Source of the DNA: an uncultured Clostridia bacterium
GTDB taxonomy: Bacteria; Bacillota; Clostridia; Christensenellales; Borkfalkiaceae
Length of the DNA: 64,000 bases
Direction: 5' to 3'
Assembly: GCA_944367045.1 (NCBI GenBank)
Contig: CALVWI010000009.1
Location: 1-64,000, forward strand
Both the position numbers and the translations under genes were made by a program. This document shows, one piece after another, positions 4,443 through 48,529 of this stretch. The notes below the pieces were generated by a model. The model was not told where the DNA came from and ran no database searches. It saw nothing but the letters and a program-made list of their open reading frames with translations. The number at the start of each line of letters is the position of its first letter. Position 1 is the first letter of the stretch.

Positions 4443-4628
4443 ATGTTATCTAAATTCAAAAAATCGATTGTACCTTTATTCATGTTGTTTGCAATAGTAA
4501 TGATTAGTGCATGTGTCATGATCTTTGCGCCTAAAAAGGTCAATGCCGGCGCGGCAGAAATAGTTCCTTATACAATTGAACGCGGTGTTCAAACATACAA
4601 TTATGTTTGTAATGACAATTGCAGGTGA
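4443..4628 (+). CDS. Small exported peptide, possibly truncated
   Basis: A 61-residue peptide follows a GGAGG site 35 bases after the preceding gene. It begins with MLSKFKKS and a hydrophobic stretch to about residue 29 containing ISAC, a weak lipobox-like sequence. An AKKVNA-like region follows that could be a signal-peptidase site (VNA at about 33-35). The mature part of about 26 residues ends in VCNDNCR, with two cysteines. The stop coincides with the point where the opposite-strand gene loses family similarity, so this may be the 5' remainder of a longer exported protein. I cannot assign a function. Confidence 0.45.
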   Translation: MLSKFKKSIVPLFMLFAIVMISACVMIFAPKKVNAGAAEIVPYTIERGVQTYNYVCNDNCR

Positions 4629-5030: not shown

Positions 5031-5042
5031 CGTTATTTCTCC

Positions 5043-32081: not shown

Positions 32082-33050
32082 TCAGTCGAGGAGCGCATCC
32101 CTCCGAAGGACGAGATCCTGCGGGATGAGCACCTTGCGGGGGGCCTCGCTTTGGGTGCAGACAGCCTCGCGGATGCTGTCCGTGAGGATGGCGGTGTTCT
32201 GCCGGATGGCGGAGAGGGTGCAGAACTGCAGCCAGCGGTTGTCGTCGAAGGTGATGAAGCGGATGCCCGCATGCTCGCGGTCCTTGAGGTGGGTGAGTAC
32301 TTCGAGGCCCGCGATGTTGGTCGCCGTGATGATGCCGTCGGGGCGGAAGGCGTCGATGCGCTGCGTGAGGACACCGACGTCATAATCGACGAGGGGGAAG
32401 CGGAGGATGTCGTATTCGGCGCCGCTCCCTTTAAGCGCTTGCAGAAAGCCCGTGCTGCGGTCGGGGCGGACGCGCTCGGATTCGAGATAGAGGTACTCGA
32501 CGTCGATGAGCAGCAGCCTCTTACACCCGAGCGAGAGGAGCGTCTCGGCGGCCTGACGGCAGCCCGATTCGTCGTCGTTGATGATGGTGTCGAGGTCGGA
32601 GTAGATGTCGCGGAAGAGCTGCACGACTTTGATGCCGTTCTTCTTGGCGACGGAGATGATCTCGCCGTTTTGGTCGTTGGTGGGGGTGAAGAAGATGGTG
32701 GAGACGCGGCTCGCGATGAGGGAACGGAAGCAGGTCTCCTCGTCGACGGGGTTCTCCGAGCTGAACGCGATGATGAGGTTCATGCCGTTTTCGGTGAGCA
32801 TCTTCTGGATGTCCGAGAGGATGCTGAAGTAGTACTCGTTGTTGCTGTCCGAAATGATGAAGCCGACCGTGCGGAAGTTGCGCGTCTTTAATTGCTGCGC
32901 CGTGGAGTTGGCGATGTACCCAAGCTCCGAAGCCGCCTTAAAGACGCTGTCGTGTGTCTCCTTGCTGATGTAACCGATCTGCCGCAGGGCACGCGAGGCC
33001 GTCGAGGGGGACACGTTTGCCCGCTCCGCTACATCCTTGATCGTGATCAT
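32082..33050 (-). CDS. LacI-family transcriptional regulator
   Basis: I start at the ATG at 33050, which has GGGAG at 8 bases; a TTG two codons earlier is less likely. The 322-residue protein begins MITIKDVAERANVSPSTASRAL, the LacI helix-turn-helix, with a hinge helix near 45-58 (NSTAQQLKTR). A periplasmic-binding-protein-like sensor domain follows. It is divergent from the GH32-like and importer locus, and two LacI-type CG-centred palindromes lie in that locus's leader. It is therefore the likely local repressor, sensing a sugar released or imported by the system. Confidence 0.9.
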   Translation of the reverse strand: MITIKDVAERANVSPSTASRALRQIGYISKETHDSVFKAASELGYIANSTAQQLKTRNFRTVGFIISDSNNEYYFSILSDIQKMLTENGMNLIIAFSSENPVDEETCFRSLIASRVSTIFFTPTNDQNGEIISVAKKNGIKVVQLFRDIYSDLDTIINDDESGCRQAAETLLSLGCKRLLLIDVEYLYLESERVRPDRSTGFLQALKGSGAEYDILRFPLVDYDVGVLTQRIDAFRPDGIITATNIAGLEVLTHLKDREHAGIRFITFDDNRWLQFCTLSAIRQNTAILTDSIREAVCTQSEAPRKVLIPQDLVLRRDALLD

Positions 33051-33175
33051 ATTCAAACTCCCATACTTTCGATTAAAAATTCGTATATTCAGATTATAAC
33101 AAAGAATGAAAGATTTGTACAGAAAAAACGCGGCGAAACCGCAAAAAAATCTCAGAAAAATTTTTCGGATTTCTA

Positions 33176-33204
33176 TTGACAGAATGCGGCTTTCATGTTA
33201 TACT
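33176..33204 (+). promoter_or_regulatory. Promoter of the GH32-like/importer locus
   Basis: TTGACA (33176-33181) and TATACT (33199-33204) are 17 bases apart. The leader to the first start codon is about 100 bases and holds two operator-like palindromes. Confidence 0.8.
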
Positions 33205-33214
33205 CATGGCAGAT

Positions 33215-33279
33215 ACAATCGTTTGCATATCGGGGACTTTCCCCTTGATAATTTTTTTGCCCGATGTGCAAACGTTTGT
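33215..33279. promoter_or_regulatory. Two LacI-type operators, 53 bp apart
   Basis: CAAACGTTTG (33269-33278) is a perfect CG-centred palindrome, and CAATCGTTTG (33216-33225) differs from it by one base. Their centres are 53 bp apart, close to five helical turns, which suits DNA looping by a tetramer. The surroundings are also symmetric: CGTTTGCATATCGGG (33220-33234) is nearly complementary to CCCGATGTGCAAACG (33260-33274). Both lie just downstream of the promoter, a repressing position. Confidence 0.75.
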
Positions 33280-33312
33280 ATATCCAAAAATAACCTGTTT
33301 TCGGAGGTAAAA

Positions 33313-34737
33313 ATGTACTATAGGGCACCCGGGAAAGCGGTCTGTGCAGACGTCATCCCGTTCTATGAGGGCGGGGAATTCAAGCTTTTTTATTTGAGAG
33401 ATTACCGTGATATTTCCGTTCACGGGGAAGGCTGCCCGTGGTGCCTTCTCACATCGAAGGATCTTGTCACTTATCATGACTGCGGCCCCGTGCTGCTCCG
33501 CGGCGGCGAGGACGAGCAGGACCTCTATGTGTTCACGGGCTGCTGCATCAAGGCGGGGGAGGAGTATATCATCTTCTATACGGGCCACAATCCGCATCTC
33601 CGCGCGAAGGGCCTGCCCGAGCAGAAGATCCTCCGCGCCGTGAGCCGCGACCTCGTGCATTGGGAGAAGGACAGGGACTTCGTCTTTGCCGCGCCTGATT
33701 GGCTGGAGATGCACGACTTCCGCGATCCCTTCGTATTCTTTGACGAGGGGCGGCAGGAGTACTGCATGTTGCTTGCGGGGAGGCTCAAGAACGGAGACCC
33801 CGCATGGGCGCGGGGCGCGACGCTTTTGGCGACTTCTTCCGACCTCACGCACTGGGAGGTGGAGCGCGAGCCCTTCTATGCCCCGCACGCTTACTTTACG
33901 CACGAATGTCCCGATCTCTTCCGCATGGGCGACTGGTGGTACCTCGTGTTCAGCGAGTTCACCGACCGCATCGCGACGACCTACCGCATGAGCCGTTCCC
34001 CCTTCGGCCCGTGGGAGGCCCCCAAGGTCAACACCTTCGACGGTCACGCCTTTTATGCGGCAAAGAGCGTCTTTGACGGCAAGCGGCGCATTCTGTTCGG
34101 CTGGAACTGCATCAAGCAGGACGAGCGCGACGACGCTCCCTGGCAGTGGGGCGGGACCATCATCCCGCACGAGATCGTGCAGCAGCCGGACGGAACGCTT
34201 GCCGTCAGATGCCCAGACGAGATCGCGGCGCAGTACCCTTCGCCCGTGCCCTTTGAAGAGGGCAGGACGATGGGCGGCGTAAAAAGGAGCGGAAGGGGAT
34301 ACCTTCTCGGACGGGAGGGCGTCAGCCTGCAGATGTTGGGGCGCATGCCTGAGAACGGCAAGATCGCGCTCACCTTCACCGCTTCGGACGACTGCGGCGA
34401 GTTCGGCGTCCTGCTGCGGGCGAACGAGGGCACCGACGCCTACTACGCGGTGCGTTTCGAGCCCCGCTTCAACCGCCTTGCGATGGACATCCAGCCGCGT
34501 GCTGACAACACCCGCCATACGCAGGTGGACGTGGAGCGCTTCTGTCCCATTCTCACCGGGGAGAAAAATTGCCTCCTCATCATTTTCGAAGGGAGCGTGC
34601 TCGAGGTGTACGTCAACGACAAGGTGGCGATGAGCGCGCGGATGTTCGACCATAAGGAGGGAGATTTCGGCATTTTTACACACAATACGAGCGTGTGTTT
34701 TGAAGATATCGGACTTTATCGGGAGGTGAAGACATGA
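33313..34737 (+). CDS. Cytoplasmic GH32-like glycoside hydrolase (clan GH-J fold)
   Basis: The ATG at 33313 follows GGAGG. The 474-residue protein has the five-bladed propeller signals of GH32-type enzymes. The predicted nucleophile is Asp13 in CADVIPFY (in place of NDPNG), followed by FRDP with the transition-state Asp at 138 and HEC with the acid/base Glu at 198. A C-terminal beta-sandwich starts near 330. With no signal peptide it acts in the cytoplasm on an imported oligosaccharide. Beta-fructosides are the usual GH32 substrate, but the N-terminal motif departs from the classic form, so the specificity is open. It is the first gene of the LacI-controlled operon. Confidence 0.75.
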   Translation: MYYRAPGKAVCADVIPFYEGGEFKLFYLRDYRDISVHGEGCPWCLLTSKDLVTYHDCGPVLLRGGEDEQDLYVFTGCCIKAGEEYIIFYTGHNPHLRAKGLPEQKILRAVSRDLVHWEKDRDFVFAAPDWLEMHDFRDPFVFFDEGRQEYCMLLAGRLKNGDPAWARGATLLATSSDLTHWEVEREPFYAPHAYFTHECPDLFRMGDWWYLVFSEFTDRIATTYRMSRSPFGPWEAPKVNTFDGHAFYAAKSVFDGKRRILFGWNCIKQDERDDAPWQWGGTIIPHEIVQQPDGTLAVRCPDEIAAQYPSPVPFEEGRTMGGVKRSGRGYLLGREGVSLQMLGRMPENGKIALTFTASDDCGEFGVLLRANEGTDAYYAVRFEPRFNRLAMDIQPRADNTRHTQVDVERFCPILTGEKNCLLIIFEGSVLEVYVNDKVAMSARMFDHKEGDFGIFTHNTSVCFEDIGLYREVKT

Positions 34738-34928
34738 AAGGACAGCTCATCTCATTCACGGTCAAAGCGGCGCTCTTTCTGCTGCTTGCCAACCTCGTGA
34801 TGCTGTTCATCGTGCCCTTCGGAACGGCCGAGTGGTATATCACGGTCATCTCCGCGGGCCTGATGGCAGTGCTCCTGGCGGCGATCCGCATCATCTATGC
34901 CGTGCGGGAGCGAAGGAAGAAGAAATGA
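34734..34928 (+). CDS. Small two-helix membrane protein
   Basis: The start overlaps the upstream stop in ATGA and GGGAGG precedes it. The 64-residue protein has two hydrophobic segments (about 7-29 and 33-55) and a basic tail RERRKKK. I do not recognise a family. Its position between the GH32-like enzyme and the first lipoprotein, with overlaps on both sides, makes it a true operon member. A membrane accessory of the importer is possible. Confidence 0.65.
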   Translation: MKGQLISFTVKAALFLLLANLVMLFIVPFGTAEWYITVISAGLMAVLLAAIRIIYAVRERRKKK

Positions 34929-36946
34929 AGGGGCGCGGCGTTTGGGCCGTCCTCATGGCGGCCTGCCTTGCAGGATGCTGCGTATTCCCCGCGTGTAGGC
35001 AGAAGGAGGATCCCGTGAGCGAAAAATTGACCTATGCCGACCTCTACAGGACACAGCCCGAGCGCACCGGGCCCATTCAGGGCAAGGCGCTCTACAGGGC
35101 GTCCTACGGCTATACCCTCATGCAGGAGCAGGGCTACAACGGCTTCCGCTACCAATACCGCAGCGGAGGGAGCTTCCTCGACATGCAGAAGGAGGGCGAA
35201 GGCTGGCAGGGCGGCGGGGCCTCCATGCAGGGCGCCTCGATGAAGGCGGCGGCGGACGCGGATGCGGTGCGGACCTTCGTCGCCCCCGAATCGGGCCTTG
35301 CGCGCATCACGGGCAATCCGCGCCTTGTCTCGGGCGAGAGCGCGCACGTCAGCATTCTTTTGGGCGGGGAAGTCCTCGCGGAGTACGACGTTTCGGACGG
35401 CGAGGGCATCTGGCACGAAGGGGAAGTCACCCTGCAAGCGGGCGATGAAGTGCGGTTCGTCCTCTCGGGCGAGGCGGAGATCGAATGGAACCCCGCCGTC
35501 GACTATACGCTTGCCGAGGAGACGCTCCTCCATCACACCGTGGACGGCTACTACGGCGACGTGCATCCCTTCTACGACGAAGCGTCGGGAAAGCTGTATA
35601 TGTACTACCTTTCGACGGGGATGCAGGAGGGGGCAAAGAAGGAACAGTTCTCCTCCCTCCTCACCGTGAGCAGCAACTTCGTGCAGTACGAAGATACGGA
35701 GCTCAAAATGGACGAGAATGACCCGCCCGAACAGGAGCTCTACTATGCGCTCGGCGTGTATGTGGACGCGGAGGGCAACTACCGCAGCAGCTACGGCAAG
35801 GGAAACTATGCGGGCGGCTCGGTGAGCGACGACCTCATCGTCTGGCGCAACGCCGCCGAGCCCTATATCGACGAGAGCGACGGCCTCCTCAAATACACCT
35901 GGCGGGCGTACTTCGACGAGGGCGTCTGGTCGGGACGCGATCCCGACATCACCTACGACGCGGAGAGCGGACGATACTACTGCGTCGTCATGAACTACTA
36001 CTCCTCCGCCGAGGCAAACGGCGAAAAGGGCCTCGCGCTCTACACGGCGGGCGAGGACGGAAGGTTTTCGACCAAGGCGGTGCGGCTCGTCGATCTGACG
36101 GGCAGGGGTGACCCCGAGTGTCCGCAGCTCAAGCGCATCGGCAACCGCTGGTATCTCTTCTACTCGGTGTACGGGACGGGCACGGCGGGCAACGTCGGGT
36201 ACCTCACCTACCGCGTGGGGGACGAGAACGTTCCGCCCGAGGAGGTGGACTGGAACAGCAAGGAGGAACACGCGCTCGAGGGCGGCGACCTCCATGCGGC
36301 GCAGGTGTGCAAAGTAGGGGACTTCTGGTATCTGTTCGGCTGGATCAACTACCGTCCGCACGCCAACGTCTGGGGCGGGTATCTCAACCTCGCCCGCGAG
36401 GTATATCAGCGCGAGGACGGGCTGCTCGCGACCCGCTGCGATGAATACCTTCTCTCCCTCCTCAACAAGGGGCATATCGCCTCCTTTGCGGGGAACGCCT
36501 CTCTCGACGGCATGAAGGAGGAGGACGGAGCGTTCCTTGTCACTTCGGAGACGGGCGACGCGCGCCTTCCGGAGACGTTCGGCCGCAGCCTCATTCGGGC
36601 GGAGATCGAGCTGCCCCTCACCGCTTCCTACGCGGGCGTGACGCTCTCGGAGGGCGGAAAGACCTACCACGTCCGCCTCAAGAGGCAGAACGGGGAGCTG
36701 TACCTCTGCATTGAGAGCGGCTCGGAGGGGTGCAGCGTGAAGGTGGAGGACGCGGACGAGACGCACTTCTCTCTGACCGTCGCGGCGGACGGCCCCTTCC
36801 TCGAGACATATGTCAACGGCAGCGTTTCGCTCACCTCGCACACCGTGCTCACGGGCAGCTATACGCTCGGGCTCTCGGGCGGGAAGGGCGCTCAACTTTC
36901 GGCCGAAGTGTATAAGCTCGCCGATTACAACAACATTTTCGAATAA
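34925..36946 (+). CDS. Secreted GH32-like lipoprotein 1
   Basis: The start overlaps the previous gene by 4 bases. The 673-residue protein has a signal peptide and the lipobox LAGC near residues 15-18. An N-terminal beta domain of about 180 residues follows, then a propeller with GDVHPFYDE, SGRDPDITYD and DPECPQL, which provide the three GH-J acidic positions. A C-terminal jelly-roll-like region contains ETYVNGSVSL. It is anchored on the outer face of the membrane, next to the importer's binding protein. It is a paralogue of the lipoprotein at 45988 and likely processes the polysaccharide or oligosaccharide before uptake. Confidence 0.75.
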   Translation: MKGRGVWAVLMAACLAGCCVFPACRQKEDPVSEKLTYADLYRTQPERTGPIQGKALYRASYGYTLMQEQGYNGFRYQYRSGGSFLDMQKEGEGWQGGGASMQGASMKAAADADAVRTFVAPESGLARITGNPRLVSGESAHVSILLGGEVLAEYDVSDGEGIWHEGEVTLQAGDEVRFVLSGEAEIEWNPAVDYTLAEETLLHHTVDGYYGDVHPFYDEASGKLYMYYLSTGMQEGAKKEQFSSLLTVSSNFVQYEDTELKMDENDPPEQELYYALGVYVDAEGNYRSSYGKGNYAGGSVSDDLIVWRNAAEPYIDESDGLLKYTWRAYFDEGVWSGRDPDITYDAESGRYYCVVMNYYSSAEANGEKGLALYTAGEDGRFSTKAVRLVDLTGRGDPECPQLKRIGNRWYLFYSVYGTGTAGNVGYLTYRVGDENVPPEEVDWNSKEEHALEGGDLHAAQVCKVGDFWYLFGWINYRPHANVWGGYLNLAREVYQREDGLLATRCDEYLLSLLNKGHIASFAGNASLDGMKEEDGAFLVTSETGDARLPETFGRSLIRAEIELPLTASYAGVTLSEGGKTYHVRLKRQNGELYLCIESGSEGCSVKVEDADETHFSLTVAADGPFLETYVNGSVSLTSHTVLTGSYTLGLSGGKGAQLSAEVYKLADYNNIFE

Positions 36947-36964
36947 GATCCAGGGAGGAAAATC

Positions 36965-38941
36965 ATGAGACCGATGCTCAAAAAGATAGCCTGTATCGCC
37001 GTTTCGGCGCTGCTCGGCGTGACCATGCTCGCCGGCTGCACGCAGACGGGAACGACGGGGGAAGGCAAGAATACCGATAACTCCTTCTCGATGGTCGCGA
37101 CGTGGACGTCGAGCGGGCTCGTCAACCATTACGACAGCAACACGACGTGCAACGCGTTCGACTACTTCGTGGTCGAGGGCCTGTGGCGGTACGTCCGCTC
37201 GACGGACGAGATCTTCTGCCAGCTCGCGGCGGAGCTTCCCACCCATTCGGAGGCGCCCATCGAGAACTATAGAGATGTGATGGGGGAGGACGCCTACGAG
37301 TACTACGTCGCAAACGGCGCGACGACCGTCCCCGTCACCACGGGCAGGATCCGCGAGGACGCCAAGTGGCAGAACGGTGAGGACTTCACCGCCAAGGACG
37401 TCTGGGCGTACTACTACATCATCCATCCCACGTCGAGCAACTACATGGCGGCGGTCAACGTCGTCGACGACAAGACGGTGGAATTCGTCTGGAACCCCCT
37501 GAAGGAGCCAGCCGACACCGTCAAGGAGCTGCTCCTCGCGCAGGACAAGTCGGGCACCGTCAAGTACGACGTGTTCGCGGCCTATGTCGATCCCGTCTAT
37601 GAGATCGTCATGAACAGCGGCGTCAACGAGAACCCCAACCTCTGGGGCGCCTTCAACCGCTTCACGACGGGCGACGCGCTCACCGACCTCAACGTCACGC
37701 GCAACGCCTTCTACAATTACAGTCCCAGCTGGTATGTGGCGACCGGCCCCTTCAAGCTGGATACCTTCTCGGCGACGCAGATCTTGCTCGTCAAGAACGA
37801 GTACTATTGGAATGCGGAGAACATCGGCTTTGACCAAGTCAAGCTGTATTCCTCCAACGACCTCAATCAGACCTATTCGCTCATTACGAACGGGTACGTC
37901 GACTACTACGACGGCTTCATCCAGAAGGACACGCTCGAGAGCATGCTCGCCTCCAACTCCGACCTCGTCAACCTCAAGATGTATGACCCCGGTTCCATCG
38001 GCATTACCTTCAACCTCGAGTGCGAGCTCCTGACCCCGGGCGTGAGAAGGGCGTTCCAGTACATCTTCGACCGCGAGGAGATCACCCTTGCCGCCAACCC
38101 ATATGCGACGACTTCCTATTACCCGCTGCTCGGCATGGCGGAATCGGAGGCGAGGACGTACATGAGCGAGGAGCACTTCAACGCGCTCCCCAAGTATTCC
38201 TACGACCAGGAGAAGGCGGCGGAGCTGCTCGAAGCGGAGGGGTGGAGCAAGCGCGACGGGCTGTGGTACGACGCGAACGGCGAACAGGTGCGCCTCACGC
38301 TCGGCGCTCCCAGCTCGCACGACATCTCCTCGACGGCGGCGGAGGCGGCAGCGGCGCAGCTCACTAACTTCGGCATCACCGTCGACCTCCTCAAATCGAG
38401 CAACTTCTACTCTAACGCGACGGCGGAGAACAGCCCGTACGACCTCACCCTCGAGTGGACCGACCTCAATATGTCCTTCTCCTACCCGACGGGTTCGTAC
38501 AGCCAGTTCTCGAGCGTCTATTCACAGTGGGTGCACGTCGAGCGCTATCCCGCCGACTACGAGGACCCTCAGAAGGCGGGCAACGTCAAGCTCGTGTTCA
38601 ACGGCCTCGACGGCGACACCAACACCTATGAGTTCGCCGACTACATCAATTCCTTCTACTCCGTGGACGAAGAGGAACTCACCTACCTCGTCGACGTGTT
38701 CAACACGGGGCTCGCAGAGCTCGACCTCGGCATCCAATTCTTCCAGAACGTGACGGCGTCCACCCTCAACGTGGGCAAGGTGAGCGGCGTTCCCCTCGAG
38801 GACTACTGGAAGGAGGACCGCAACGTGACCTACGTCCCCGAGGCGGGCACGGACGACTTCTTCGAAGTGGCGCGCACCAACCTCGTGTATGCGACCAACT
38901 ACATGTTCATCTACGGCGTGTATCAGCCCAACAAGACCTGA
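36965..38941 (+). CDS. Dpp/Opp-type ABC importer substrate-binding lipoprotein
   Basis: GGGAGG precedes the ATG. The 658-residue protein has a signal peptide and lipobox LAGC near 21-24. It then has the family 5 binding-protein fold with NGEDFTAKDVWAYYYI near 138 and VRRAFQYIFDREEITLA near 360. It is longer than peptide-binding DppA. Family 5 proteins bind peptides, nickel or oligosaccharides (as in Thermotoga), and the glycosidase neighbours point to an oligosaccharide here. Two permeases and two ATPases follow directly. Confidence 0.9.
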   Translation: MRPMLKKIACIAVSALLGVTMLAGCTQTGTTGEGKNTDNSFSMVATWTSSGLVNHYDSNTTCNAFDYFVVEGLWRYVRSTDEIFCQLAAELPTHSEAPIENYRDVMGEDAYEYYVANGATTVPVTTGRIREDAKWQNGEDFTAKDVWAYYYIIHPTSSNYMAAVNVVDDKTVEFVWNPLKEPADTVKELLLAQDKSGTVKYDVFAAYVDPVYEIVMNSGVNENPNLWGAFNRFTTGDALTDLNVTRNAFYNYSPSWYVATGPFKLDTFSATQILLVKNEYYWNAENIGFDQVKLYSSNDLNQTYSLITNGYVDYYDGFIQKDTLESMLASNSDLVNLKMYDPGSIGITFNLECELLTPGVRRAFQYIFDREEITLAANPYATTSYYPLLGMAESEARTYMSEEHFNALPKYSYDQEKAAELLEAEGWSKRDGLWYDANGEQVRLTLGAPSSHDISSTAAEAAAAQLTNFGITVDLLKSSNFYSNATAENSPYDLTLEWTDLNMSFSYPTGSYSQFSSVYSQWVHVERYPADYEDPQKAGNVKLVFNGLDGDTNTYEFADYINSFYSVDEEELTYLVDVFNTGLAELDLGIQFFQNVTASTLNVGKVSGVPLEDYWKEDRNVTYVPEAGTDDFFEVARTNLVYATNYMFIYGVYQPNKT

Positions 38942-38953
38942 CGGGAGGTGAAA

Positions 38954-40018
38954 ATGCAAGCAACGACGGCCGCCCGTCCGAGAGGCAAGCGCTTTCTCGC
39001 GGCGCTCGGCGCATTCTTTCAGAAATACAGCTACTTCTTCGCGAAGATCGGCATCTCCGTCCTGACGCTCGCGCTCTCCGTCATCGCACTCTTCTTCCTC
39101 CTGCGCATGATCCCGGGGGACATCGTCGAGCTGTATGCCCTCAAGCTGCAGAATCAGCAGGGCATCACCTTCGACCGTGCGTACGAGCTCGCGGCGCAGC
39201 TGCTCAACTATGACCCCAATGAGAACGTCTTTCAGGCCTTCGTGCGCTACATCGGCGGCCTCTTCCGCGGGGAGCTGGGGACTTCCTACCTCGAGACGGG
39301 CGTCTCGGCCAACAGCCTCATCGCGACCCGCCTCCCGTGGACGCTCTTCATCTCGTCGGTGTCGCTCTTTCTGAGCTTCTTCATCGGTATCGCGGTGGGC
39401 GGCTATGTGGCACAGAAGCGCAACGGCGTTGCCAACAAGGTCGCCTCGGGCTTCATCGCGGTCTCGGGCTCCGTTCCCGATTACCTCGTCGCACTGCTGC
39501 TCGTCATCGTCTTTGCCTATCAGCTCAAGTGGTTTCCCGCGCAGAACAACTACGACGCCTTCTCGGTGACCCCGGGGTTCAACCTCCCGTTCATCGGCAG
39601 CGTGCTCTACTATGCCTTCCTGCCCATCCTCTCGTACACCATCGTGCAGACGGGCAACTGGATATTGCACATGCGGGGCAGCTGCATCGGCGTTCTGGGT
39701 GAGGACTACATCCTCGCTGCGCGCGCAAGGGGGCTCTCCGAGCGCACCATCCGCACCAAGTACATGAAAAAGAACGCGCTCCTGCCGCTCATCACGCAGT
39801 TCGGCGTCTCCTTCGGGGCGCTGTTCGGCGGGGCGACGCTCATGGAGAGCATCTTCAACTACCCCGGCATCGGGCTTGAGATCTCCAACCGCATCATCAG
39901 CAAGGACTACATGGTCGTGCAGGGGCTCATCTTTTTCTCCGCGGCGATGGTCATCCTCGTCAACCTTGTGGTCGATCTCATCTATCCGCTCGTCGACCCG
40001 AGGGTGAGAAAGGGGTGA
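38954..40018 (+). CDS. Dpp/Opp-type ABC importer permease 1
   Basis: I use the ATG at 38954, with GGGAGG in front; a GTG two codons earlier overlaps that site. The 354-residue protein has one membrane segment near 25-50 and a large external loop. Five more segments carry the permease motif ARARGLSERTIRTKYMKKNALLP near 260-280 that contacts the ATPase. The layout is that of DppB/OppB. It pairs with the next gene. Confidence 0.92.
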   Translation: MQATTAARPRGKRFLAALGAFFQKYSYFFAKIGISVLTLALSVIALFFLLRMIPGDIVELYALKLQNQQGITFDRAYELAAQLLNYDPNENVFQAFVRYIGGLFRGELGTSYLETGVSANSLIATRLPWTLFISSVSLFLSFFIGIAVGGYVAQKRNGVANKVASGFIAVSGSVPDYLVALLLVIVFAYQLKWFPAQNNYDAFSVTPGFNLPFIGSVLYYAFLPILSYTIVQTGNWILHMRGSCIGVLGEDYILAARARGLSERTIRTKYMKKNALLPLITQFGVSFGALFGGATLMESIFNYPGIGLEISNRIISKDYMVVQGLIFFSAAMVILVNLVVDLIYPLVDPRVRKG

Positions 40019-40022
40019 GCAT

Positions 40023-40934
40023 ATGAACAGGACAACGACCATCAGGAGCGGGGCCGCGGCCGCGGGACGCTTCTTCCGGGAACTCGGCTGTTCCCTCGCA
40101 AGGGGATGCAGGAAGTTCTTCTCCAACACCAAGACGATCGTCGGCTTCTCCATCATCGTCTTCTTTATCCTCGTCGCCGTCTTCGGGCCGCTCATCTTTC
40201 CCTATGACCCTTCGACCGACATGGCGAACGCCTACCTGATGCCCTCGTGGGAGCACCCCTTCGGCACCGACTGGCTGGGAAGGGACGTGTTCCGTCAGGT
40301 CATCGCGGGCACGGGCTCCGTGCTCGAAGTCGCCTTCTACTCCGCCGTCTTTACCGTCGTCATCGGCACGGTGCTCGGCATCGTCAGCGGGTATCTCGGC
40401 GGATGGGTGGACAAGGTCATCATGGCGGTCACCAACATCTTTCTCTCCATTCCCTCCTTCCCGATCTACCTCCTGCTCGCTGCCATCGTCACCATCAATA
40501 CGCCGGTGTCGCTCGCGGTCATCATCTCCATCTGGAGCTGGGCGGGCCTGTGCCGCGCCGTGCGTGTGCAGATCATGAGCCTCAAGGAGCGCGACTTCAT
40601 CCAGATCTGCACCGTCATGCACATGAGCAAGGCGCACATCATCTTCAAGGAGCTGCTCCCCAACGTGTTCTCCTACGTCGCCATCAACTTTGTCATGGCG
40701 ATGCGCAACGCCATCATGGCGAGCGTGGGCATCATGCTCGTGGGGCTCGCGGCATACGATCCAACCAACTGGGGCGCGATCATCAACGCGGCGCGCACGA
40801 AGGGGCTCATGAACGTCAAGAACATCTATATCCTGCTCTATCCGCTCGTCTGCATCATCATCTTCCAGATCTCGACGCTGCTGCTTGCGAACGGGCTGGA
40901 TGAGACGCTCAATCCCAGACTCAAGGTCATGTGA
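40023..40934 (+). CDS. Dpp/Opp-type ABC importer permease 2
   Basis: The 303-residue protein is of the DppC/OppC type. It has an N-terminal membrane segment (about 36-58), then HPFGTDWLGRDVFRQVI near 78, a conserved DppC phrase, and the coupling motif near 195-215. Five membrane segments follow the first. It starts 4 bases after the first permease, and its partner ATPase gene overlaps its end. Confidence 0.93.
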   Translation: MNRTTTIRSGAAAAGRFFRELGCSLARGCRKFFSNTKTIVGFSIIVFFILVAVFGPLIFPYDPSTDMANAYLMPSWEHPFGTDWLGRDVFRQVIAGTGSVLEVAFYSAVFTVVIGTVLGIVSGYLGGWVDKVIMAVTNIFLSIPSFPIYLLLAAIVTINTPVSLAVIISIWSWAGLCRAVRVQIMSLKERDFIQICTVMHMSKAHIIFKELLPNVFSYVAINFVMAMRNAIMASVGIMLVGLAAYDPTNWGAIINAARTKGLMNVKNIYILLYPLVCIIIFQISTLLLANGLDETLNPRLKVM

Positions 40935-40942
40935 GGCGCCCT

Positions 40943-41953
40943 ATGCAGACAAACAGAGACAACATTGCCGTGTTTTCCCACGTCTCCATCGACTACCCCC
41001 TCAAAAAGTACACTCTCCGCGCCGTGACGGACATCACCTTCGAGCTCAAGCGGGGCGCGATCACGGCGCTCGTGGGGGAGAGCGGTTCGGGCAAGACGAC
41101 GCTTGCGTCCTCGCTCATCCGCTGTATCTCCGAGCCGGGGCGCGTCGCGGAAGGGGAGATCACCTTCTACGGAAAGGACGGGGAGGAGCGGCTCGACCTC
41201 CTTCCCGACCCCAAGATGCGCGCCTTCCGCTGGAGCAAGGTCTCGATGGTCTTTCAGGCGGCGCAGAGCGCGCTCAACCCCGTGCTCACCGTGCGGGAGC
41301 AGTTCACCGAGACGCTCGAGGCGCACGGGGAGAAGCTCTCCAAAGAGGAGCGGGAGGCGAAGTTTTCAGACCTTCTCGGGTACGTCAAACTGGATGCGGA
41401 GCGCGTGCTCGCCTCCTATCCGCACGAGCTCTCGGGCGGCATGAAACAGCGCGTCATGATCGCCTTTGCGCTGCTGCTCGACCCCGAGCTCATCATCCTC
41501 GATGAGCCGACGACGGCGCTCGACGTCATCACGCAGAACTATATCTTTACGCTTTTGAAGCAGATCAACCGCGAAAAGGGCATCTCCATGCTCCTCATGA
41601 CGCACGACATCAGCGTCGTCGCCAAGTTCGCGGACTATGTGGGCGTTATGTACGGCGGGCGGCTCATGGAGTACGGGGACGTGCGCACCGTCTTTCACCG
41701 TCGCAGGCACCCCTACACGGCGGGGCTCATCGGCGCGACGCCCTCCATCATCGGCGACATCTCCGAGATGAAGCCCATCGAGGGCAGCCCGCCCGACCTT
41801 CTGCATCTTCCCAAGGGCTGCATCTTTGCGCCGCGGTGCCCGAGGTGCTCGGACGTCTGCCTGACGGAGGAGCCGCCCATGCGGGAATATGGAGACGGCA
41901 GCAAGGGGAAATGTTACTTCTTCGGGGAGGCAGACGATGGAAAAGGCAACTGA
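40943..41953 (+). CDS. Dpp/Opp-type ABC importer ATPase 1
   Basis: The ATG at 40943 has GAGG in front; a GTG at 40931 overlapping the previous stop is an alternative. The 336-residue protein has Walker A GESGSGKTT near 42-50, signature LSGGMKQR near 160, Walker B LIILDEPTTALD near 180, and the C-terminal oligopeptide-transporter extension with a cysteine cluster (CIFAPRCPRCSDVC). That cluster matches the iron-sulfur site of DppD-type ATPases. It pairs with the next ATPase. Confidence 0.92.
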   Translation: MQTNRDNIAVFSHVSIDYPLKKYTLRAVTDITFELKRGAITALVGESGSGKTTLASSLIRCISEPGRVAEGEITFYGKDGEERLDLLPDPKMRAFRWSKVSMVFQAAQSALNPVLTVREQFTETLEAHGEKLSKEEREAKFSDLLGYVKLDAERVLASYPHELSGGMKQRVMIAFALLLDPELIILDEPTTALDVITQNYIFTLLKQINREKGISMLLMTHDISVVAKFADYVGVMYGGRLMEYGDVRTVFHRRRHPYTAGLIGATPSIIGDISEMKPIEGSPPDLLHLPKGCIFAPRCPRCSDVCLTEEPPMREYGDGSKGKCYFFGEADDGKGN

Positions 41954-42986
41954 ACAGGCAAAGACGCCGCTCATGCGCCTCAAGGGCATCAACATGGTGT
42001 TCAAGAAGCCGGGTGCACTGTTTGCGGACAAAAATATCCACGTCCTGAAGGACATCGACCTCGAGATCGGCGAGAAGGAGATCGTGGCGCTCGTGGGCGA
42101 GTCGGGCTGCGGCAAGACGACGCTCGGCAAGATCATCACGGGGCTGTACCGCCCGACGTCGGGCGAGGTGTACTTCGAGGGCGAGCGCGTCTCGGGCACG
42201 TTCGACAAGAAGATCTCCTCCTACAATCAGGTGCAGTTCATCCAACAGGACTCCTACGCCGCGCTCAATCCCGTGCGCACCATCTATCAGAGCCTGTACG
42301 CGCCCATCAAGACGCACAACCGCAAGTGGAGCCGCGCCCGCATCGACGAGCGCATCGAGGAGCTCATGGGGCTCATCGGGCTGCTCCCTTCGGCGCAGTT
42401 CCTTTCGAAGTACCCGCACCAGCTCTCGGGCGGGCAGAGACAGCGCATCTTGATGGCGCGCGCCATCTCGCTCGAACCCAAACTCATCGTGGCCGACGAG
42501 CCCGTCAGCATGATCGACGTCTCCCTCCGCCTCTCCCTCCTCAACCTCATGAAGGAGCTCAACGAGAAGCTGGATATGTCCTTCGTGTACATCTCGCACG
42601 ACCTCTCGACGACGCGCTATATCGCCCACAGCGGGCGGGTGGCGGTCATGTATCTCGGGGAGATCGTCGAGGTGGGGAAGATCGGCGACGTCATCGCCTC
42701 TCCCCGCCATCCCTATACGCGCGCCCTCCTGCAGGCCGTTCCCATTCCCGACCCCGACTTCAAGGGGAATGACGAGCTGCCGCTCAAGTCCATGCAGCTG
42801 GGCTCCCTCGAGAACAGAGGGGAGGGCTGTTCCTTTTTCGACCGCTGCCTGTACGCCGACGATGCGTGCAGGAAGAAGTTCGGTCCCGTAAAGACAGAGA
42901 CGGCCGAGGTGCTCTGCTGTGGCCTTGACAGGGTCCCCACGGCTCCCGTCTTTGAAAAAATCATTCAAACGGAGGAAAATTCATGA
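41937..42986 (+). CDS. Dpp/Opp-type ABC importer ATPase 2
   Basis: The start at 41937 overlaps the previous gene by 17 bases and has GGGGAGG. The 349-residue protein has Walker A GESGCGKTT near 56, signature LSGGQRQR near 164, Walker B LIVADEPVSMID near 184 and a C-terminal CSFFDRCLYADDAC cluster. It is DppF/OppF-like and completes the five-part importer. The next gene overlaps its stop. Confidence 0.92.
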   Translation: MEKATEQAKTPLMRLKGINMVFKKPGALFADKNIHVLKDIDLEIGEKEIVALVGESGCGKTTLGKIITGLYRPTSGEVYFEGERVSGTFDKKISSYNQVQFIQQDSYAALNPVRTIYQSLYAPIKTHNRKWSRARIDERIEELMGLIGLLPSAQFLSKYPHQLSGGQRQRILMARAISLEPKLIVADEPVSMIDVSLRLSLLNLMKELNEKLDMSFVYISHDLSTTRYIAHSGRVAVMYLGEIVEVGKIGDVIASPRHPYTRALLQAVPIPDPDFKGNDELPLKSMQLGSLENRGEGCSFFDRCLYADDACRKKFGPVKTETAEVLCCGLDRVPTAPVFEKIIQTEENS

Positions 42987-45931
42987 GCAAAACATTCGCC
43001 AATGTCTTGAAAGGGCTCACGGCGGCGCTCGCCGCGGTCTGCCTCGCCCTCGGCATCGTCCTTGCCGCGGGCAGCGTTCCGCAGAGGGCATTCGCCGAGG
43101 AGACGGAGGGCAAGGTCCTCTATGAAGAGGACTTCTCGGAGGGCGCGGGCGCGCTCTCGGACTACGTCTCTGCATCGGGCGGAGAGGGGACGGTGACGAG
43201 CAATACCATGTTCGACCTGCCCCTTTCGGAGCCTTCGGCATCCAACAACTACTCGGTGGAGTTTGACCTCAAACTCACGGGCACGACGGAGTTCTACGTC
43301 CACTTCGTCGGCCTGGACGGCACCAATCACGACAACATCTATCTGTGCGTCATCGCGCAGGGCACCTACCTCCGCGTGACGGACAACTACGGCCACGACA
43401 TCTACAACAACACGGGCGACCTGCACGGCGGGCTCGACGCGACGCCCGTCGACCTTTCGGACTTCGCGCACTTCAAGCTCGTGTTCTTCGAGGGGTACGT
43501 CGAACTGTGGGTGAACGGCACCCGCCGCTGTGTGAGCCACCTTGTCGACTTCGGCAACAACAACTACATGTCCCGCTCGCCCATCGAGGAGGGGACGATC
43601 TCTTCGATCGCCTTCCATGCGCAGAATGCGGGGGCGGCCGTGCTCGACAACATCCGCGTGACCGAGCCCGTCGGCGGGGCAACGCAATATGAGGCGACGA
43701 ACGCGGAGGAGAGCACGTCCTCCTCCATGACCTTCCCGCTCTCGGCAGTCAACCTCTACCGCGAGAACTTCTCGGCAGAGGCGACCTTCCGCATCACGAG
43801 CACGGAGGCGGCGGGGTATTATCCCACCCTCAAGCTGTACGGGCTCAACGCCTCCCTCCGTGGGAACAATCAGAAGGAGTACGCCGTCAACGTGCAGGCG
43901 TATGTGGAGGGAAGCTCCTTCCTGCCGCAGATCATGTGGCAGCCCGAGGAGGCCGACACGGCATGGCGGGACGTGACGGGAACGGCCGTCACCGTCAGCG
44001 AGGGCGACCTCGTCACCATGCGCGTCGAAGTGTACGGCGATCATTTCGACCTCTACGTCAACGGCGAGCTCAACGCCTCCTCGACCTTCTCCGAGATGGG
44101 CCTTGAGGAGGGCCGCGTGCAGTACATCCGCGTGCAGAGCGGGGGCGGCGGCGCCGTCTGGACGCGCTTTGCCTATTGCGGGTTCGAAGGGGAGAACGGG
44201 ATGTCCGTCACGGCGGACGAGACCCTCGTCATGGAGGGAACGCCCGTCACCTTCACGGCACAGCCCTTCGGCGAGCGCGTATCGGATTGCGCATGGTATG
44301 TGAACGGCGAACGGCAGGCGGAGACGGGGCTCACCTTCGTCCTTGAGGGCGAGGCGGGCGAGTACTCCGTGCAGTACGGCAGCGGCACGCTCATGAGCGA
44401 GCCCGTCACGGTCACCGTCGTCGACCGCATGATCACGCTGTCCGCGGACAGGACGGAGATGTATCCCACCGAGTCGCTCACCGTCACGGCGGAGCTCATG
44501 GGCGACTTTACGGGCGAGAATTTTGCGTGGTACTTAAACGGCGAGAAGCTCGAGGAAACTTCGGCGTCCGTCACGCTCTCCTCGCTTGCGGCGGGCAGCT
44601 ACACGCTGCAGTATAAGAGCGAGAACTGCGAGAGCACCATTACTTTCACCGTGCTCGAAGCGGAAGTCACCGTGACGACGGAGAAGAACAGCTACTTTAC
44701 CGATGAGACCGCGACGTTCACGGCAGAGCTTTCGGGCATCCGTGAGGGCGAGAGCATCTCGTGGTATGTGGACGGCACGCTGCAGGAGGGCGCAGAGGGC
44801 GAGACCTTCTCCCTTCCCATGAGCGCCTATGAGGCGGGCAGCAAGGTGAGGGTGTCTGCCGAGGCCGCGGGCATCCGCAGCGAGGAAGTGACGGTGAGCG
44901 TCGCCTTCGACGTCATGCAGTCCATCAAGGACAACGAGTACTACAAGATCGTCTATGAGGACGTTCTCGAGGAGGGCGGCACCTACGGCAACTTCTCCGT
45001 CGGCAAGGACGAGGACGGCTCGCTCTACCTCTTCAGCGAAGTCGCGAACAACAGTACCTACTACACGCTGAACGCGCCGTCGCTCTCGGGCACCGAGTAT
45101 CTCTTCTCTTATGAGCTGTATATCCCCGCCGACGTCTCCATCAAGAGCTATATCTATCCCTGCCTTGCGGGCCTCAATTCCAACTATCCCGCGGGCATGG
45201 TGGAAGTCGCGTGGGAGGTCAATCCCGAGGGCGTGCGTCCATATATCAAGGACCAGAGCACGGGCAAAGAGTACCTCCACACCGAGTACGGCTTCGGGCT
45301 CGATCTGAGCTACGAGGGCGGCATCGCCAAAAAGGGAGACTGGAACGAGATCGCGGTCGCCGTCTCGGGCAACTATGTCTCCATGTATATCAACGGGCAG
45401 ATCGCGCTCTTCTTTGAGATGACGGGTGCAACGGTGCCCTCGGGCATCAGCTTCAACCTCTTCCCCGACGGCGGGACGGGCGTCGTGCCCCTGCGCATCC
45501 GCAACATCCTCATCGCGGGCGTCGTGGAGCCTGCCCCCGACCTTCAGAGCGTCACCGTCTCCCTCTCCTCCGTCAATGTGGAGAAGGGCGGCACCCTGAC
45601 TGCCTCCGCAACACTCAACCCCTTCAACGCCGAGGCGAATGAGATCGTCTGGTACGTCAACGGCGAGAAGGCGGGCGAGGGCTCCCTCAGCTTCACCTTC
45701 ACGGCAGAGGAGGAGGGCGAATACACCGTCGTGTGCGAAGTGGACGGCATCCGCAGCGCGGAAAAGACGTTCACCGTCACGGCTCCCTCGGGCGGTGACA
45801 GCGGGAGCGAACCATCGGACAACACCGGGCTTTGGATCGGCATCGGCGTTGCGGCCGGCGTCGTCGTCATTGCGGGCATCGTCATCGCAGTCGTCGTCGT
45901 GAAAAAGAAGAAGTCCGAGAAGGACGAGTGA
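42983..45931 (+). CDS. Large membrane-anchored surface protein with lectin-like and Ig-like domains
   Basis: The ATG overlaps the importer stop and GGAGG precedes it. The 982-residue protein has a signal peptide (residues 1-38, ending AFA). Two concanavalin-like domains (about 45-230 and 240-400) share the phrase DLYVNGE or ELWVNGT. Ig-like repeats (about 405-650) have WYVNGE or WYLNGE cores. A third concanavalin-like domain (about 655-855) and one more Ig-like domain (about 860-935) follow. The end is a membrane helix (LWIGIGVAAGVVVIAG) with KKKKSEKDE; there is no LPxTG sortase signal. Glycan capture at the cell surface is the likely job. Confidence 0.75.
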   Translation: MSKTFANVLKGLTAALAAVCLALGIVLAAGSVPQRAFAEETEGKVLYEEDFSEGAGALSDYVSASGGEGTVTSNTMFDLPLSEPSASNNYSVEFDLKLTGTTEFYVHFVGLDGTNHDNIYLCVIAQGTYLRVTDNYGHDIYNNTGDLHGGLDATPVDLSDFAHFKLVFFEGYVELWVNGTRRCVSHLVDFGNNNYMSRSPIEEGTISSIAFHAQNAGAAVLDNIRVTEPVGGATQYEATNAEESTSSSMTFPLSAVNLYRENFSAEATFRITSTEAAGYYPTLKLYGLNASLRGNNQKEYAVNVQAYVEGSSFLPQIMWQPEEADTAWRDVTGTAVTVSEGDLVTMRVEVYGDHFDLYVNGELNASSTFSEMGLEEGRVQYIRVQSGGGGAVWTRFAYCGFEGENGMSVTADETLVMEGTPVTFTAQPFGERVSDCAWYVNGERQAETGLTFVLEGEAGEYSVQYGSGTLMSEPVTVTVVDRMITLSADRTEMYPTESLTVTAELMGDFTGENFAWYLNGEKLEETSASVTLSSLAAGSYTLQYKSENCESTITFTVLEAEVTVTTEKNSYFTDETATFTAELSGIREGESISWYVDGTLQEGAEGETFSLPMSAYEAGSKVRVSAEAAGIRSEEVTVSVAFDVMQSIKDNEYYKIVYEDVLEEGGTYGNFSVGKDEDGSLYLFSEVANNSTYYTLNAPSLSGTEYLFSYELYIPADVSIKSYIYPCLAGLNSNYPAGMVEVAWEVNPEGVRPYIKDQSTGKEYLHTEYGFGLDLSYEGGIAKKGDWNEIAVAVSGNYVSMYINGQIALFFEMTGATVPSGISFNLFPDGGTGVVPLRIRNILIAGVVEPAPDLQSVTVSLSSVNVEKGGTLTASATLNPFNAEANEIVWYVNGEKAGEGSLSFTFTAEEEGEYTVVCEVDGIRSAEKTFTVTAPSGGDSGSEPSDNTGLWIGIGVAAGVVVIAGIVIAVVVVKKKKSEKDE

Positions 45932-45987
45932 TATCGTGCGGGACGGCCGCGCGCGGGAGCGCGCGGCCCTTTCCCCTGAGGAGGAAC

Positions 45988-47895
45988 ATGAAGAGAATAC
46001 TCGCGGCGGCAGCCGCAGGATGTTTGATGATCTGGGGGTTATTGCCGATGTGTGCCTGTAAGGAAGAGGAGGCGCCGTTCGACTATGCGGCGCTCTACAA
46101 GACGGAACGGACGCAGCCGTACGAGGGCGAGGCGCTCACCTCGCGCTCCCGCTACGGCTACACCTGTGCGAACGCGCAGGGCTTTCACAACTGGTACTAT
46201 CTCTACGGAAGGGCGGGCGCGCTTTCCGAGATGACGTGGGATGCGTCCAAGAGCCGCTGGACGGGCGGCGGGGCCTCCATGGACGGCGAACTGCTCTCCC
46301 CGTCGGGCGAAAATATGGCGGTCAGGATGTACCGCTCTCCCTCGGGCGGAGAGGCCGTCCTCTACGGCAACTACCGCGCCGCAGGGGAGGAGGGCGCCTC
46401 GGTGCTCGTCTTTGTCGACGGCGAGAAAGTCTATGAGGGCACCCTGCAGGGCGGCGACACGGTGGGGTACTACATGGAAGTTCCCGTCACCCTCCGCGAG
46501 GGCAGCGAGGTGTGCTTTGCGGCCTCGGGCGGGGATGTATTGTTCGATCCCGCCGTGACCTTCGAGAACGCGCAGAACGAGTCGCTCTATCACCTGACCG
46601 CCGCGGGCAAGCAGTACGGCGACGTCTTTCCCTACTACGACGAGGAGCAGCACCGCCTCTACATGGGCTTTCTGTGGTCGGACAATGCGGCGCTCCCCGA
46701 CAACTACCACGACGCCCTCGAAGTTTCCGACAACATGCTCACCTATACCGATGTTCCCGAGGCGAACAACTACGACGTGTGGCAGTACTACCGCGAGCAC
46801 TACCGCCTCCATCAGCTCTTTGACGTGAGCCGCTTCTGCGACAGGAGCATCTATCCCTATGGCGTGCGCGACAATATGCTGTACTTCGACGAGGAGAACG
46901 GGCGCTATCTCATGGTCGCGGGCTGTTACTATGCGTTCGACGCCGCGGCGCAGACCTCCGACCTCGTCATCTACGCATCTGACGACGAGATGGGCCTGAG
47001 CTGGACGCAGCCCGCAAACGTCGTCGAGGCAGGCTATTCGCGCAACCTGCCCGAGTGCCCCTCCCTCATGAAGATCGGGAACAGGTGGTACGTCTTTGTC
47101 TCGGTCGCCTACAACACGGCGCATCAGGTGGGGCTGCTCCAATACTGGACGGGCGACGAGGGCGTCGACTGCATGGACGTCGACTGGTCGCAAAAGGAGT
47201 TCGCTTTCCTCGACGGCGAGGACCTCTGTGCGGCGCGTCCCACGCAGGTGGGGGAGAAGGTGTACCTCTGGGGCTGGATCCCCTCCACCTACGACAGTAT
47301 GCCCTGGGCGCCCTGGGCGGGCTATCTCAATCTTCCGCGTGAAGTCGTCGTGCGCGAGGACGGCTCCCTCGGCGGTCGGCTGGATCCGGGGCTCTCCGCG
47401 CTCCTCAACTACGGCAAGGTGTACGCGGTGGGGGAGGGGAACTTTACGGCGGAGAACGCCTCCTATGCGGACGGAACGCTCATCTCGGGCGGCGGGCTCG
47501 TGCGCCTCGGCGACTTCCACCGCACCTATACGACCTTCCGTATGGATATGAATGAGAGTCAAAGAGCGGGCATTCAGATGGAACAGGACGGAAAGCGGTA
47601 CCAGGTCGTCATCGAGCGGGAGGGCGGAAAAGCCTTCATGAAGGTACTCTCTCCCGATGATCCGTCGCACAAGGTGAACAGCACGATCTGCCTTCCCTCC
47701 GATACGGGCGTGTTTGACGTCAAGATCGTCTCCGACGGAGAATTTATCGAGTTCTTTGTCAACGATACCTGCGCCCTGACTGCTCACACCGCAATGACGG
47801 GAATGTCGCATACGCTCTCGCTTTTTTGCGACAAGGAAGCGGAATTTTCCAATGTCAGCGTCTCCAAACTCCGTCCCTACGGAGAGATCGACTGA
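45988..47895 (+). CDS. Secreted GH32-like lipoprotein 2 with altered RDP motif
   Basis: GAGGAGGAAC precedes the ATG. The 635-residue protein has a signal peptide and a cysteine at residue 24 (LPMCAC) that may be the lipidation site. The layout repeats that of the lipoprotein at 34925: a beta domain, then GDVFPYYDE, a propeller and LPECPSL, and a C-terminal jelly roll. Where the paralogue has RDP, this protein has GVRDNMLYFDEENGRYLM, an RDN. The loss of the Pro may change activity or specificity, or make it a binding protein. It is the last gene of the locus and is followed by a terminator. Confidence 0.72.
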   Translation: MKRILAAAAAGCLMIWGLLPMCACKEEEAPFDYAALYKTERTQPYEGEALTSRSRYGYTCANAQGFHNWYYLYGRAGALSEMTWDASKSRWTGGGASMDGELLSPSGENMAVRMYRSPSGGEAVLYGNYRAAGEEGASVLVFVDGEKVYEGTLQGGDTVGYYMEVPVTLREGSEVCFAASGGDVLFDPAVTFENAQNESLYHLTAAGKQYGDVFPYYDEEQHRLYMGFLWSDNAALPDNYHDALEVSDNMLTYTDVPEANNYDVWQYYREHYRLHQLFDVSRFCDRSIYPYGVRDNMLYFDEENGRYLMVAGCYYAFDAAAQTSDLVIYASDDEMGLSWTQPANVVEAGYSRNLPECPSLMKIGNRWYVFVSVAYNTAHQVGLLQYWTGDEGVDCMDVDWSQKEFAFLDGEDLCAARPTQVGEKVYLWGWIPSTYDSMPWAPWAGYLNLPREVVVREDGSLGGRLDPGLSALLNYGKVYAVGEGNFTAENASYADGTLISGGGLVRLGDFHRTYTTFRMDMNESQRAGIQMEQDGKRYQVVIEREGGKAFMKVLSPDDPSHKVNSTICLPSDTGVFDVKIVSDGEFIEFFVNDTCALTAHTAMTGMSHTLSLFCDKEAEFSNVSVSKLRPYGEID

Positions 47896-47924: not shown

Positions 47925-47952
47925 CCGGGCGGGATGCCCGGCCTTCTTTTGT
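47925..47952 (+). terminator. Terminator of the glycan locus
   Basis: CCGGGC pairs with GCCCGG around GGGAT, and CCTTCTTTTG follows. Confidence 0.7.
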
Positions 47953-48083: not shown

Positions 48084-48515
48084 ATGAACGAAAACCGAGA
48101 GCTTGACGGCATTCATTTTTTGTTTCCCGTGGGGGAGAAGACGCCTGCTAAATCGCAGAAGTCCTTTACGGGCGGGGACGTGTATCATTTCATGTTCATT
48201 CCGCACGAGAGCAAACTCAACTGTCCCTTGGGGAACGTGACTTACACGCCCGGTTCGCGCAATAGTTGGCACGCGCACCCCGGGCTGCAGGTGCTTCTTG
48301 TCACCTACGGAAGGGGCTGGTATCAGGAGGAGGGAAAAGAGCCGCGCGAATTGCACGCGGGCGATTACGTCGTCGTGGAGCCCGGCGTCAAGCATTGGCA
48401 CGGCGCCGCGAAAGACAGCTATATGGCGCAGCTGGGGTTTGTCGCCAACTGCCCCGAAAACTCTACGCTGACCTTTGAGCACGTTTCGGACGAAGAATAC
48501 AGTAAATTACCATAA
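48084..48515 (+). CDS. Cupin-domain protein
   Basis: GGAGGGT precedes the ATG. The 143-residue protein has a single cupin. Motif 1 is WHAHPGLQVLLVTYGRG near residues 56-72 and motif 2 is GDYVVVEPGVKHWHG near 93-107. Together these give metal-binding histidines His57, His59, His104 and His106. Such small cupins accompany carboxymuconolactone decarboxylase-like or short-chain dehydrogenase genes. Here an SDR follows after 14 bases, so the two probably act on the same small molecule. Confidence 0.8.
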   Translation: MNENRELDGIHFLFPVGEKTPAKSQKSFTGGDVYHFMFIPHESKLNCPLGNVTYTPGSRNSWHAHPGLQVLLVTYGRGWYQEEGKEPRELHAGDYVVVEPGVKHWHGAAKDSYMAQLGFVANCPENSTLTFEHVSDEEYSKLP

Positions 48516-48529
48516 AAGAGGAGAAAAGC

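Follow-up and report, generated by a model that had tools for sequence, protein, structure and literature searches.

The window analysed here is a stretch of 64,000 nucleotides from an uncultured Clostridia bacterium (contig CALVWI010000009.1), and its positions 33313-47895 carry ten co-directional genes, with a divergent gene for a LacI-family regulator alongside (Table 1). The run encodes a cytoplasmic enzyme of glycoside hydrolase family 32 (GH32), a small membrane protein, a first lipoprotein (lipoprotein 1), a family 5 binding lipoprotein (SBP5), the two permeases and two ATPases of an Opp-type importer (OppBCDF), a 982-residue surface protein and a second lipoprotein (lipoprotein 2). Every gene named in an earlier note on this DNA was recovered, with several starts corrected. 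Pfam supported the classes given there for most genes; lipoprotein 1 fell below every cut-off, and the lectin- and Ig-like labels of the surface protein derive from weak repeated matches. As judged by eye, the 982-residue protein has an N-terminal signal and a C-terminal membrane anchor, no signal peptide is seen in the cytoplasmic GH32 enzyme, and the lipoprotein-type N-termini of the two lipoproteins suggest a surface location. The standout feature of the operon is its importer, which is of the Opp/Dpp (family 5) class normally used for peptides.

Table 1. Features of the operon and of its flanks, in window positions (aa, amino acids)
Feature	Position	Strand	Basis
LacI-family regulator, divergent	32082..33056	-	PF00356 and PF00532 over cut-off
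Sigma-70-type promoter, TTGACA-17-TATACT	33176..33204	+	11/12 consensus matches; relatives with similar promoter
Candidate LacI-type operator 1 (ATACAATCGTTTGCATA region)	33212..33229	.	CG-centred palindrome, 6/8 pairs
Candidate LacI-type operator 2 (TGTGCAAACGTTTGTATA)	33265..33282	.	CG-centred palindrome, 6/8 pairs
Cytoplasmic BT1760-type GH32 enzyme, 474 aa	33313..34737 (start corrected)	+	PF00251, 106.7 bits; BT1760, 6.3e-49
Small membrane protein, 64 aa	34734..34928 (start corrected)	+	Translation; relatives in same gene position
Lipoprotein 1, 673 aa: N-terminal beta-sandwich, GH32-type propeller, C-terminal sandwich	34925..36946 (start corrected)	+	Aligned catalytic residues; model
Family 5 binding lipoprotein (SBP_bac_5, SBP5), 658 aa	36965..38941	+	PF00496, 132 bits
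OppB-type permease	38948..40018	+	PF00528
OppC-type permease	40023..40934	+	PF00528 and PF12911
OppD-type ATPase	40931..41953	+	PF00005 and PF08352
OppF-type ATPase; true start possibly a few codons later	41889..42986	+	PF00005 and PF08352
982-residue surface protein, lectin/Ig-like repeats	42983..45931	+	Weak repeated Pfam matches: Laminin_G_3, Ig_3, PKD_3, others
Lipoprotein 2, BT1760-type GH32, 635 aa	45988..47895 (start corrected)	+	PF00251, 36.6 bits; catalytic residues aligned
Terminator-like hairpin	47925..47941	+	Scan: 17 found versus 11.7 expected in shuffles

The three hydrolases, one intracellular and two predicted to be extracellular, are of one fold, as had been proposed. The cytoplasmic enzyme scored far over the PF00251 cut-off (106.7 versus 22.1 bits), and its five best relatives in the PDB were chains of BT1760 alone, over residues 1-466. 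According to PMC6560043, BT1760 is an endo-levanase with the catalytic triad Asp41, Asp169 and Glu221. Its GDPMPFY segment, which holds Asp41, aligns with ADVIPFY of the cytoplasmic enzyme. The earlier note had taken the (A/G)DV(I/H/F)P(F/Y)Y motif as the mark of an undescribed family; since its Asp is the established nucleophile of BT1760, the motif marks BT1760-type GH32 enzymes instead. The hydrolases are kin of a characterised GH32 enzyme whose known substrate is levan, and the new-family reading of the motif was rejected on the end-to-end match to BT1760, the correspondence to Asp41 and the conserved triad. Equivalents of Asp169 and Glu221 were found in all 41 BT1760-type open reading frames (ORFs) and the nucleophile Asp in 36 of them; the other five have a gap there, at least in some cases because start trimming had removed the N-terminus. 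D, RD and E were invariant in 10/10 aligned rows, which include both window lipoproteins (lipoprotein 2 has RDN where RDP is usual), and all three window hydrolases carry the nucleophile Asp, the RD stabiliser and the Glu acid/base. Lipoprotein 2 exceeded the GH32N cut-off (36.6 versus 22.1 bits). For lipoprotein 1, the first five PDB chains retrieved with an AlphaFold2 model of medium confidence (predicted local distance difference test, pLDDT, 65) were BT1760, and its orthologue in genome G1124 cleared the GH32 cut-off with 39 bits. The hydrolases may still possibly form a subfamily with a new specificity.

The importer comprises a family 5 binding protein, two permeases and two ATPases with an oligo_HPY tail, which is the composition of an Opp/Dpp system; it matches PF00496 and OppC_N, and the family 1 binding protein and permease pair of a CUT1 system are not found in it. 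Among solved structures, SBP5 is remotely related (4.8e-6) to 1zty, a chitin-oligosaccharide-binding family 5 protein which we take to come from Vibrio. A structure model of SBP5 reached a pLDDT of 38. That a Dpp/Opp-type importer sits in this locus is borne out, and the second GH32 locus of the same genome has a different, CUT1-like importer. Besides a BT1760-type lipoprotein, a LacI gene and an ATP-binding cassette (ABC) importer, whose two permeases we read as CUT1, this second locus (contig 5, L045) has two FruK-like and two NDPNG GH32 genes. Its binding protein had no Pfam match at 1e-5, and the CUT1 label comes from the two permeases and from our reading of them (PF00528 fits CUT1 and Opp alike). 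Loci of the contig-5 type recur in G009, G042, G047 and partly in G205; in such loci, BT1760-type genes are accompanied by GH32 genes of the canonical kind and by a pfkB kinase gene.

The association between importer and enzyme is tight. Eleven of these enzymes form one clade with support 1.0 in a tree from which L113_18264 (a fragment of a gene complete in L131) and L073_9943 (at a contig end) were omitted; within the stretches seen, an SBP5 gene adjoins all 11 and Opp permease genes are present for 10. Three BT1760-type genes near Opp genes lie outside the clade (that of G700, one of those in G1164 and a second one in G230). Conversely, SBP5 relatives at 1e-40 were found in 8 of 251 genomes of the family and adjoin this enzyme in seven; the eighth (G033) has it at the end of a short contig, next to CUT1-like genes. 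Identity matrices of enzyme and importer from nine genomes (G1164 and L050 not included) were correlated, partly through shared species descent, with r = 0.84 for SBP5 and r = 0.87 for OppB, values reached by 5/10000 and 1/10000 permutations, respectively. The importer has diverged in step with the enzyme.

A scan of named genomes returned four loci, three on contigs of uncultured Clostridia metagenome-assembled genomes and one in Candidatus Gallimonas faecavium. Full-length lipoprotein 1 was present in 4/251 family genomes, own genome counted (G000, G060, G196 and G046), and a profile search found it in 3/297 order genomes, counted likewise (G000, G1124 and G1164). The search for conserved gene order, which the earlier note had suggested, recovered the same run (GH32 enzyme, small membrane protein, lipoprotein 1, SBP5, OppBCDF, surface protein, lipoprotein 2) in G060, G196, G046 and G1124, and in L048 up to the contig end inside lipoprotein 2; this recurrence makes the operon more than a chance arrangement. 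The lipoprotein 1 gene of L048 (7560-9586) begins out of frame, either through an assembly error or because the gene is broken. L050 has the first genes only, up to the SBP5 start. A relative of the small membrane protein is encoded at the corresponding place, flanked by the same neighbours, in G060, G196, G046, L048, L050 and G1124. The arrangement varies in G1164, where lipoproteins and surface protein are placed after the transporter and the small membrane protein is absent from the list of the ORF caller, and a reduced form, with LacI, GH32, SBP5 and Opp genes and a GH32 protein of 770-788 residues, occurs in G230, G195 and G129. The neighbourhood tables were built with a home-made ORF caller and blastp against genes of the window and its own genome; other genes appear unnamed in them, and absences are weak evidence.

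Control by the LacI protein, also proposed earlier, is supported by a strong predicted promoter and by two putative operators beside the divergent LacI gene. The palindromes GATACAATCGTTTGCATA and TGTGCAAACGTTTGTATA are both CG-centred and lie 53 bp apart downstream of the promoter, which is one of 7 promoter-like sites in the window (3.8 expected). The second is the same or nearly the same in five promoters (L038, L040, L048, L050 and the window). G060 and G196 have a comparable pair with a spacing of 55 bp; L048 and L050 have, besides the second site, a near-copy of the first that was seen by eye and left unscored by the scan; in G046, G1124 and G1164 there are again two sites per promoter, but their sequence, though related, is altered and their spacing is wider. 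The best NCBIfam match of the LacI protein is a fructose-responsive regulator subfamily, far under the cut-off. When up to 3 mismatches were allowed, 14 operator-like places turned up in the own genome versus 9 in the control, and 4 of the 14 are the window promoter. For a possible wider regulon, three of the other places were inspected and none of these was convincing: C2 lies between genes, C5:98411 lies inside an ABC ATPase gene and C4 is the promoter of a gene that we take, by eye, for dinB, with what is presumably an SOS-like box. Terminator-like hairpins are found both at the operon end and 3' of the LacI gene; with 17 such hairpins versus 11.7 expected in shuffles, the terminator call is weak alone. 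Past it, at 48084-49501, lie cupin and short-chain dehydrogenase genes, for which a link to the operon was not found.

Elsewhere in the phylum, one genome (G700) has a more distant Opp set, the family 5 protein of which scores 206.6 bits; a related enzyme is encoded next to it on the same strand, along with DUF2961 and GH32 genes, the latter very large. Its sister G849 has the enzyme, DUF2961 and large GH32 genes in common with it; an Opp set was not seen there, and the importer closest by, a CUT1 set, lies past a gene on the opposite strand and adjoins a GH120 gene. An importer swap between the two (Opp in G700, CUT1 in G849) was considered and rejected, since this position makes the CUT1 set probably part of another system; G849 shows only that the enzyme and the DUF2961 gene occur without an Opp set. 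The large GH32 genes of the two loci (L096 and L094) encode 1493 and 2089 residues. Other BT1760-type genes keep varied company. CUT1-like permeases accompany them in, for example, G593, G996, one G595 locus and the contig-5-type loci, and lie ~8 kb off in L076. G322 has a CUT2-like (PF02653) permease and XylB, and a LacY-type permease of the major facilitator superfamily was recognised in G853 by Pfam and in G899 and G663 by sequence likeness. In the neighbourhood tables, no importer was recognised near the BT1760-type gene of G471, the other G595 locus, G674, G018 or G069.

We propose, with a probability of roughly 0.6, that the operon is an inducible system for fructan use with an Opp/Dpp (family 5) importer. 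The proposal starts from what can be read in the DNA itself: the gene set and its recurring order, the promoter and operator-like palindromes, the catalytic residues and the tight linkage of importer to enzyme. The two surface lipoproteins, with BT1760-type GH32 propellers, would cut the polymer outside the cell, and the 982-residue Ig/lectin-like protein would keep hold of it. Oligosaccharides released in this way would be bound by the family 5 lipoprotein, OppBCDF would bring them in intact and the signal-less cytoplasmic GH32 enzyme would hydrolyse them to monosaccharide. The LacI protein would sit on the two operators just downstream of the promoter until released by a sugar; both oligosaccharide import and the identity of this inducer are inferred. 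A fructan substrate is suggested by kinship and by the company that related enzymes keep, for example in G700, where the Opp set adjoins the enzyme, DUF2961 and large GH32 genes, and in the contig-5-type loci; DUF2961 includes the alpha-fructofuranosidase of GH172 (PMC8605356). From the kinship with BT1760 alone one might guess at a beta-2,6, levan-type linkage.

Several observations weigh against this reading. The cassette is rare, as the lipoprotein 1 counts given above indicate, and shared species descent accounts for part of the matrix correlation. Lipoprotein 1 itself has no Pfam or NCBIfam match over cut-off, the propeller of its model (pLDDT 65) is poor and its superposition on BT1760 is loose (root mean square deviation ~10, TM 0.38/0.48). 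The nearest named solved relatives of the binding protein include peptide-binding proteins. Finally, three cassettes contain or adjoin a XylB-like kinase gene: in G046 it lies directly 3' of lipoprotein 2, with another GH32 gene behind it, in G1164 a sulfatase gene precedes it, and in G1124 the LacI gene does. In addition, a FruK-like match at 1e-20 is missing in 3/9 cassette genomes (G046, G1124 and G230).

XylB-like kinases are not a textbook feature of fructose use. Either the sugar is still fructose and another kinase acts on it, or the ketose is a different one. In the latter case the same machinery would handle some other ketofuranoside, or a furanoside of D-arabino configuration, and the free sugar would be phosphorylated by a kinase of the XylB/FGGY type instead of a fructokinase. 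The kinases just listed and the missing FruK-like matches favour this alternative, as does G322, where XylB and the PF02653 permease stand beside two BT1760-type genes. However, G060 has the full cassette with a FruK-like gene and without a XylB-like gene over cut-off; the window cassette has no kinase, and its genome holds two FruK-like genes elsewhere (in the contig-5 locus), its XylB gene being on contig 30 after a fucose-isomerase-domain gene; and BT1760 itself is a levanase. On balance we consider another sugar unlikely. An evolutionary version, in which the Opp-linked BT1760-type lineage would have left fructans for a different ketofuranoside glycan (in some niches perhaps a sulfated one), the ketose set free would enter metabolism through a XylB-like kinase and the family 5 importer would have been recruited for the new oligosaccharide, we regard as quite unlikely.

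In L113 (G1164; 959-5379) the operon runs on with the sulfatase (CSPSR motif), the XylB-like kinase, which is over cut-off, and a further BT1760-type lipoprotein. Upstream in G322 (L075, L133), where the two BT1760-type genes adjoin the PF02653-type importer and XylB-like kinase, are dihydroxyacetone-kinase-like genes and others that look, by eye, glycyl-radical-enzyme-like; this locus possibly serves a non-fructose ketose or polyol route. At 16178-17683 the window has an FGGY-kinase-like gene (115 bits to XylB) and at 24014-25534 one that encodes an alpha-L-arabinofuranosidase C-terminal domain; the two perhaps belong to an arabinose cluster upstream of the operon.

A second alternative is that the importer carries peptides or nickel and merely shares an operon with GH32 genes. 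Its families are indeed those of oligopeptide and nickel systems, in line with the peptide-binding proteins among its PDB sequence relatives. However, the importer is mid-operon in every full cassette seen, close SBP5 relatives occur only with this enzyme in 7/8 genomes, the binding protein stays under the cut-off of all NCBIfam peptide and nickel models, and oligosaccharide-binding family 5 proteins are known (1zty); we therefore hold cargo of this kind to be decidedly improbable. That the three hydrolases make up a glycoside hydrolase family of their own, not yet described, a view favoured by the failure of lipoprotein 1 to reach any Pfam or NCBIfam cut-off, is very improbable indeed, given the BT1760-type catalytic residues and the lipoprotein 1 model and G1124 orthologue that point to GH32.

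The operon and its relatives show that, in uncultured gut Clostridia, levanase-type enzymes are repeatedly paired with transporters of a class usually annotated as 'peptide', and by virtue of that label a route for carbohydrates may be going unrecognised in many genomes. The operon also offers a compact test set for family 5 oligosaccharide uptake: a binding protein, two surface enzymes, a cytoplasmic enzyme and two operators. The parts have precedents, in a Dpp/Opp importer listed for fructose and sucrose (PMC8034154) and in the chitin-oligosaccharide family 5 protein 1zty. No description of a BT1760-type GH32 locus with an importer of the Opp type was found in the literature searched, a search beyond whose reach most subscription titles lay.

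A close parallel is the levan utilisome of Bacteroides thetaiotaomicron, as described in PMC6560043 and PMC7618045. The two share the GH32 fold, the triad and the motif position, as well as a surface enzyme with an Ig-like surface binding protein (the Bacteroides levan-binding protein has predicted Ig-like domains; PMC7618045); cutting of the polymer outside and import of oligosaccharides are also common to both, as a proposal in the case of the window operon. Bacteroides, however, uses SusC/SusD in the outer membrane, whereas the window operon has an Opp/Dpp ABC importer and a LacI regulator, and its predicted surface enzymes number two and have an additional domain at the N-terminus. There is no SusC/SusD pair among its ten genes, which sets it apart from a Bacteroides levan polysaccharide utilization locus. 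The contig-5 locus and its kin share with the window operon the BT1760-type lipoprotein, LacI gene and ABC importer but have different permeases and, in addition, a pfkB kinase gene and GH32 genes of the NDPNG type, all of which are missing from the window operon. The 1zty protein and its kin likewise bind an oligosaccharide with a family 5 protein but are only remotely related and bind another sugar. In Caldicellulosiruptor, the Dpp/Opp transporter Csac_0261-0265 is listed for fructose and sucrose, a listing taken from an earlier study (PMC8034154), and it resembles the window importer in being of Opp type and assigned to a fructose-containing sugar. Finally, the B. dentium GH172 operon (PMC8605356) shares the LacI regulator, GH32 and ABC importer; it contains a GH172/DUF2961 gene, which the window operon lacks, although DUF2961 adjoins the related enzyme in G700 and G849.

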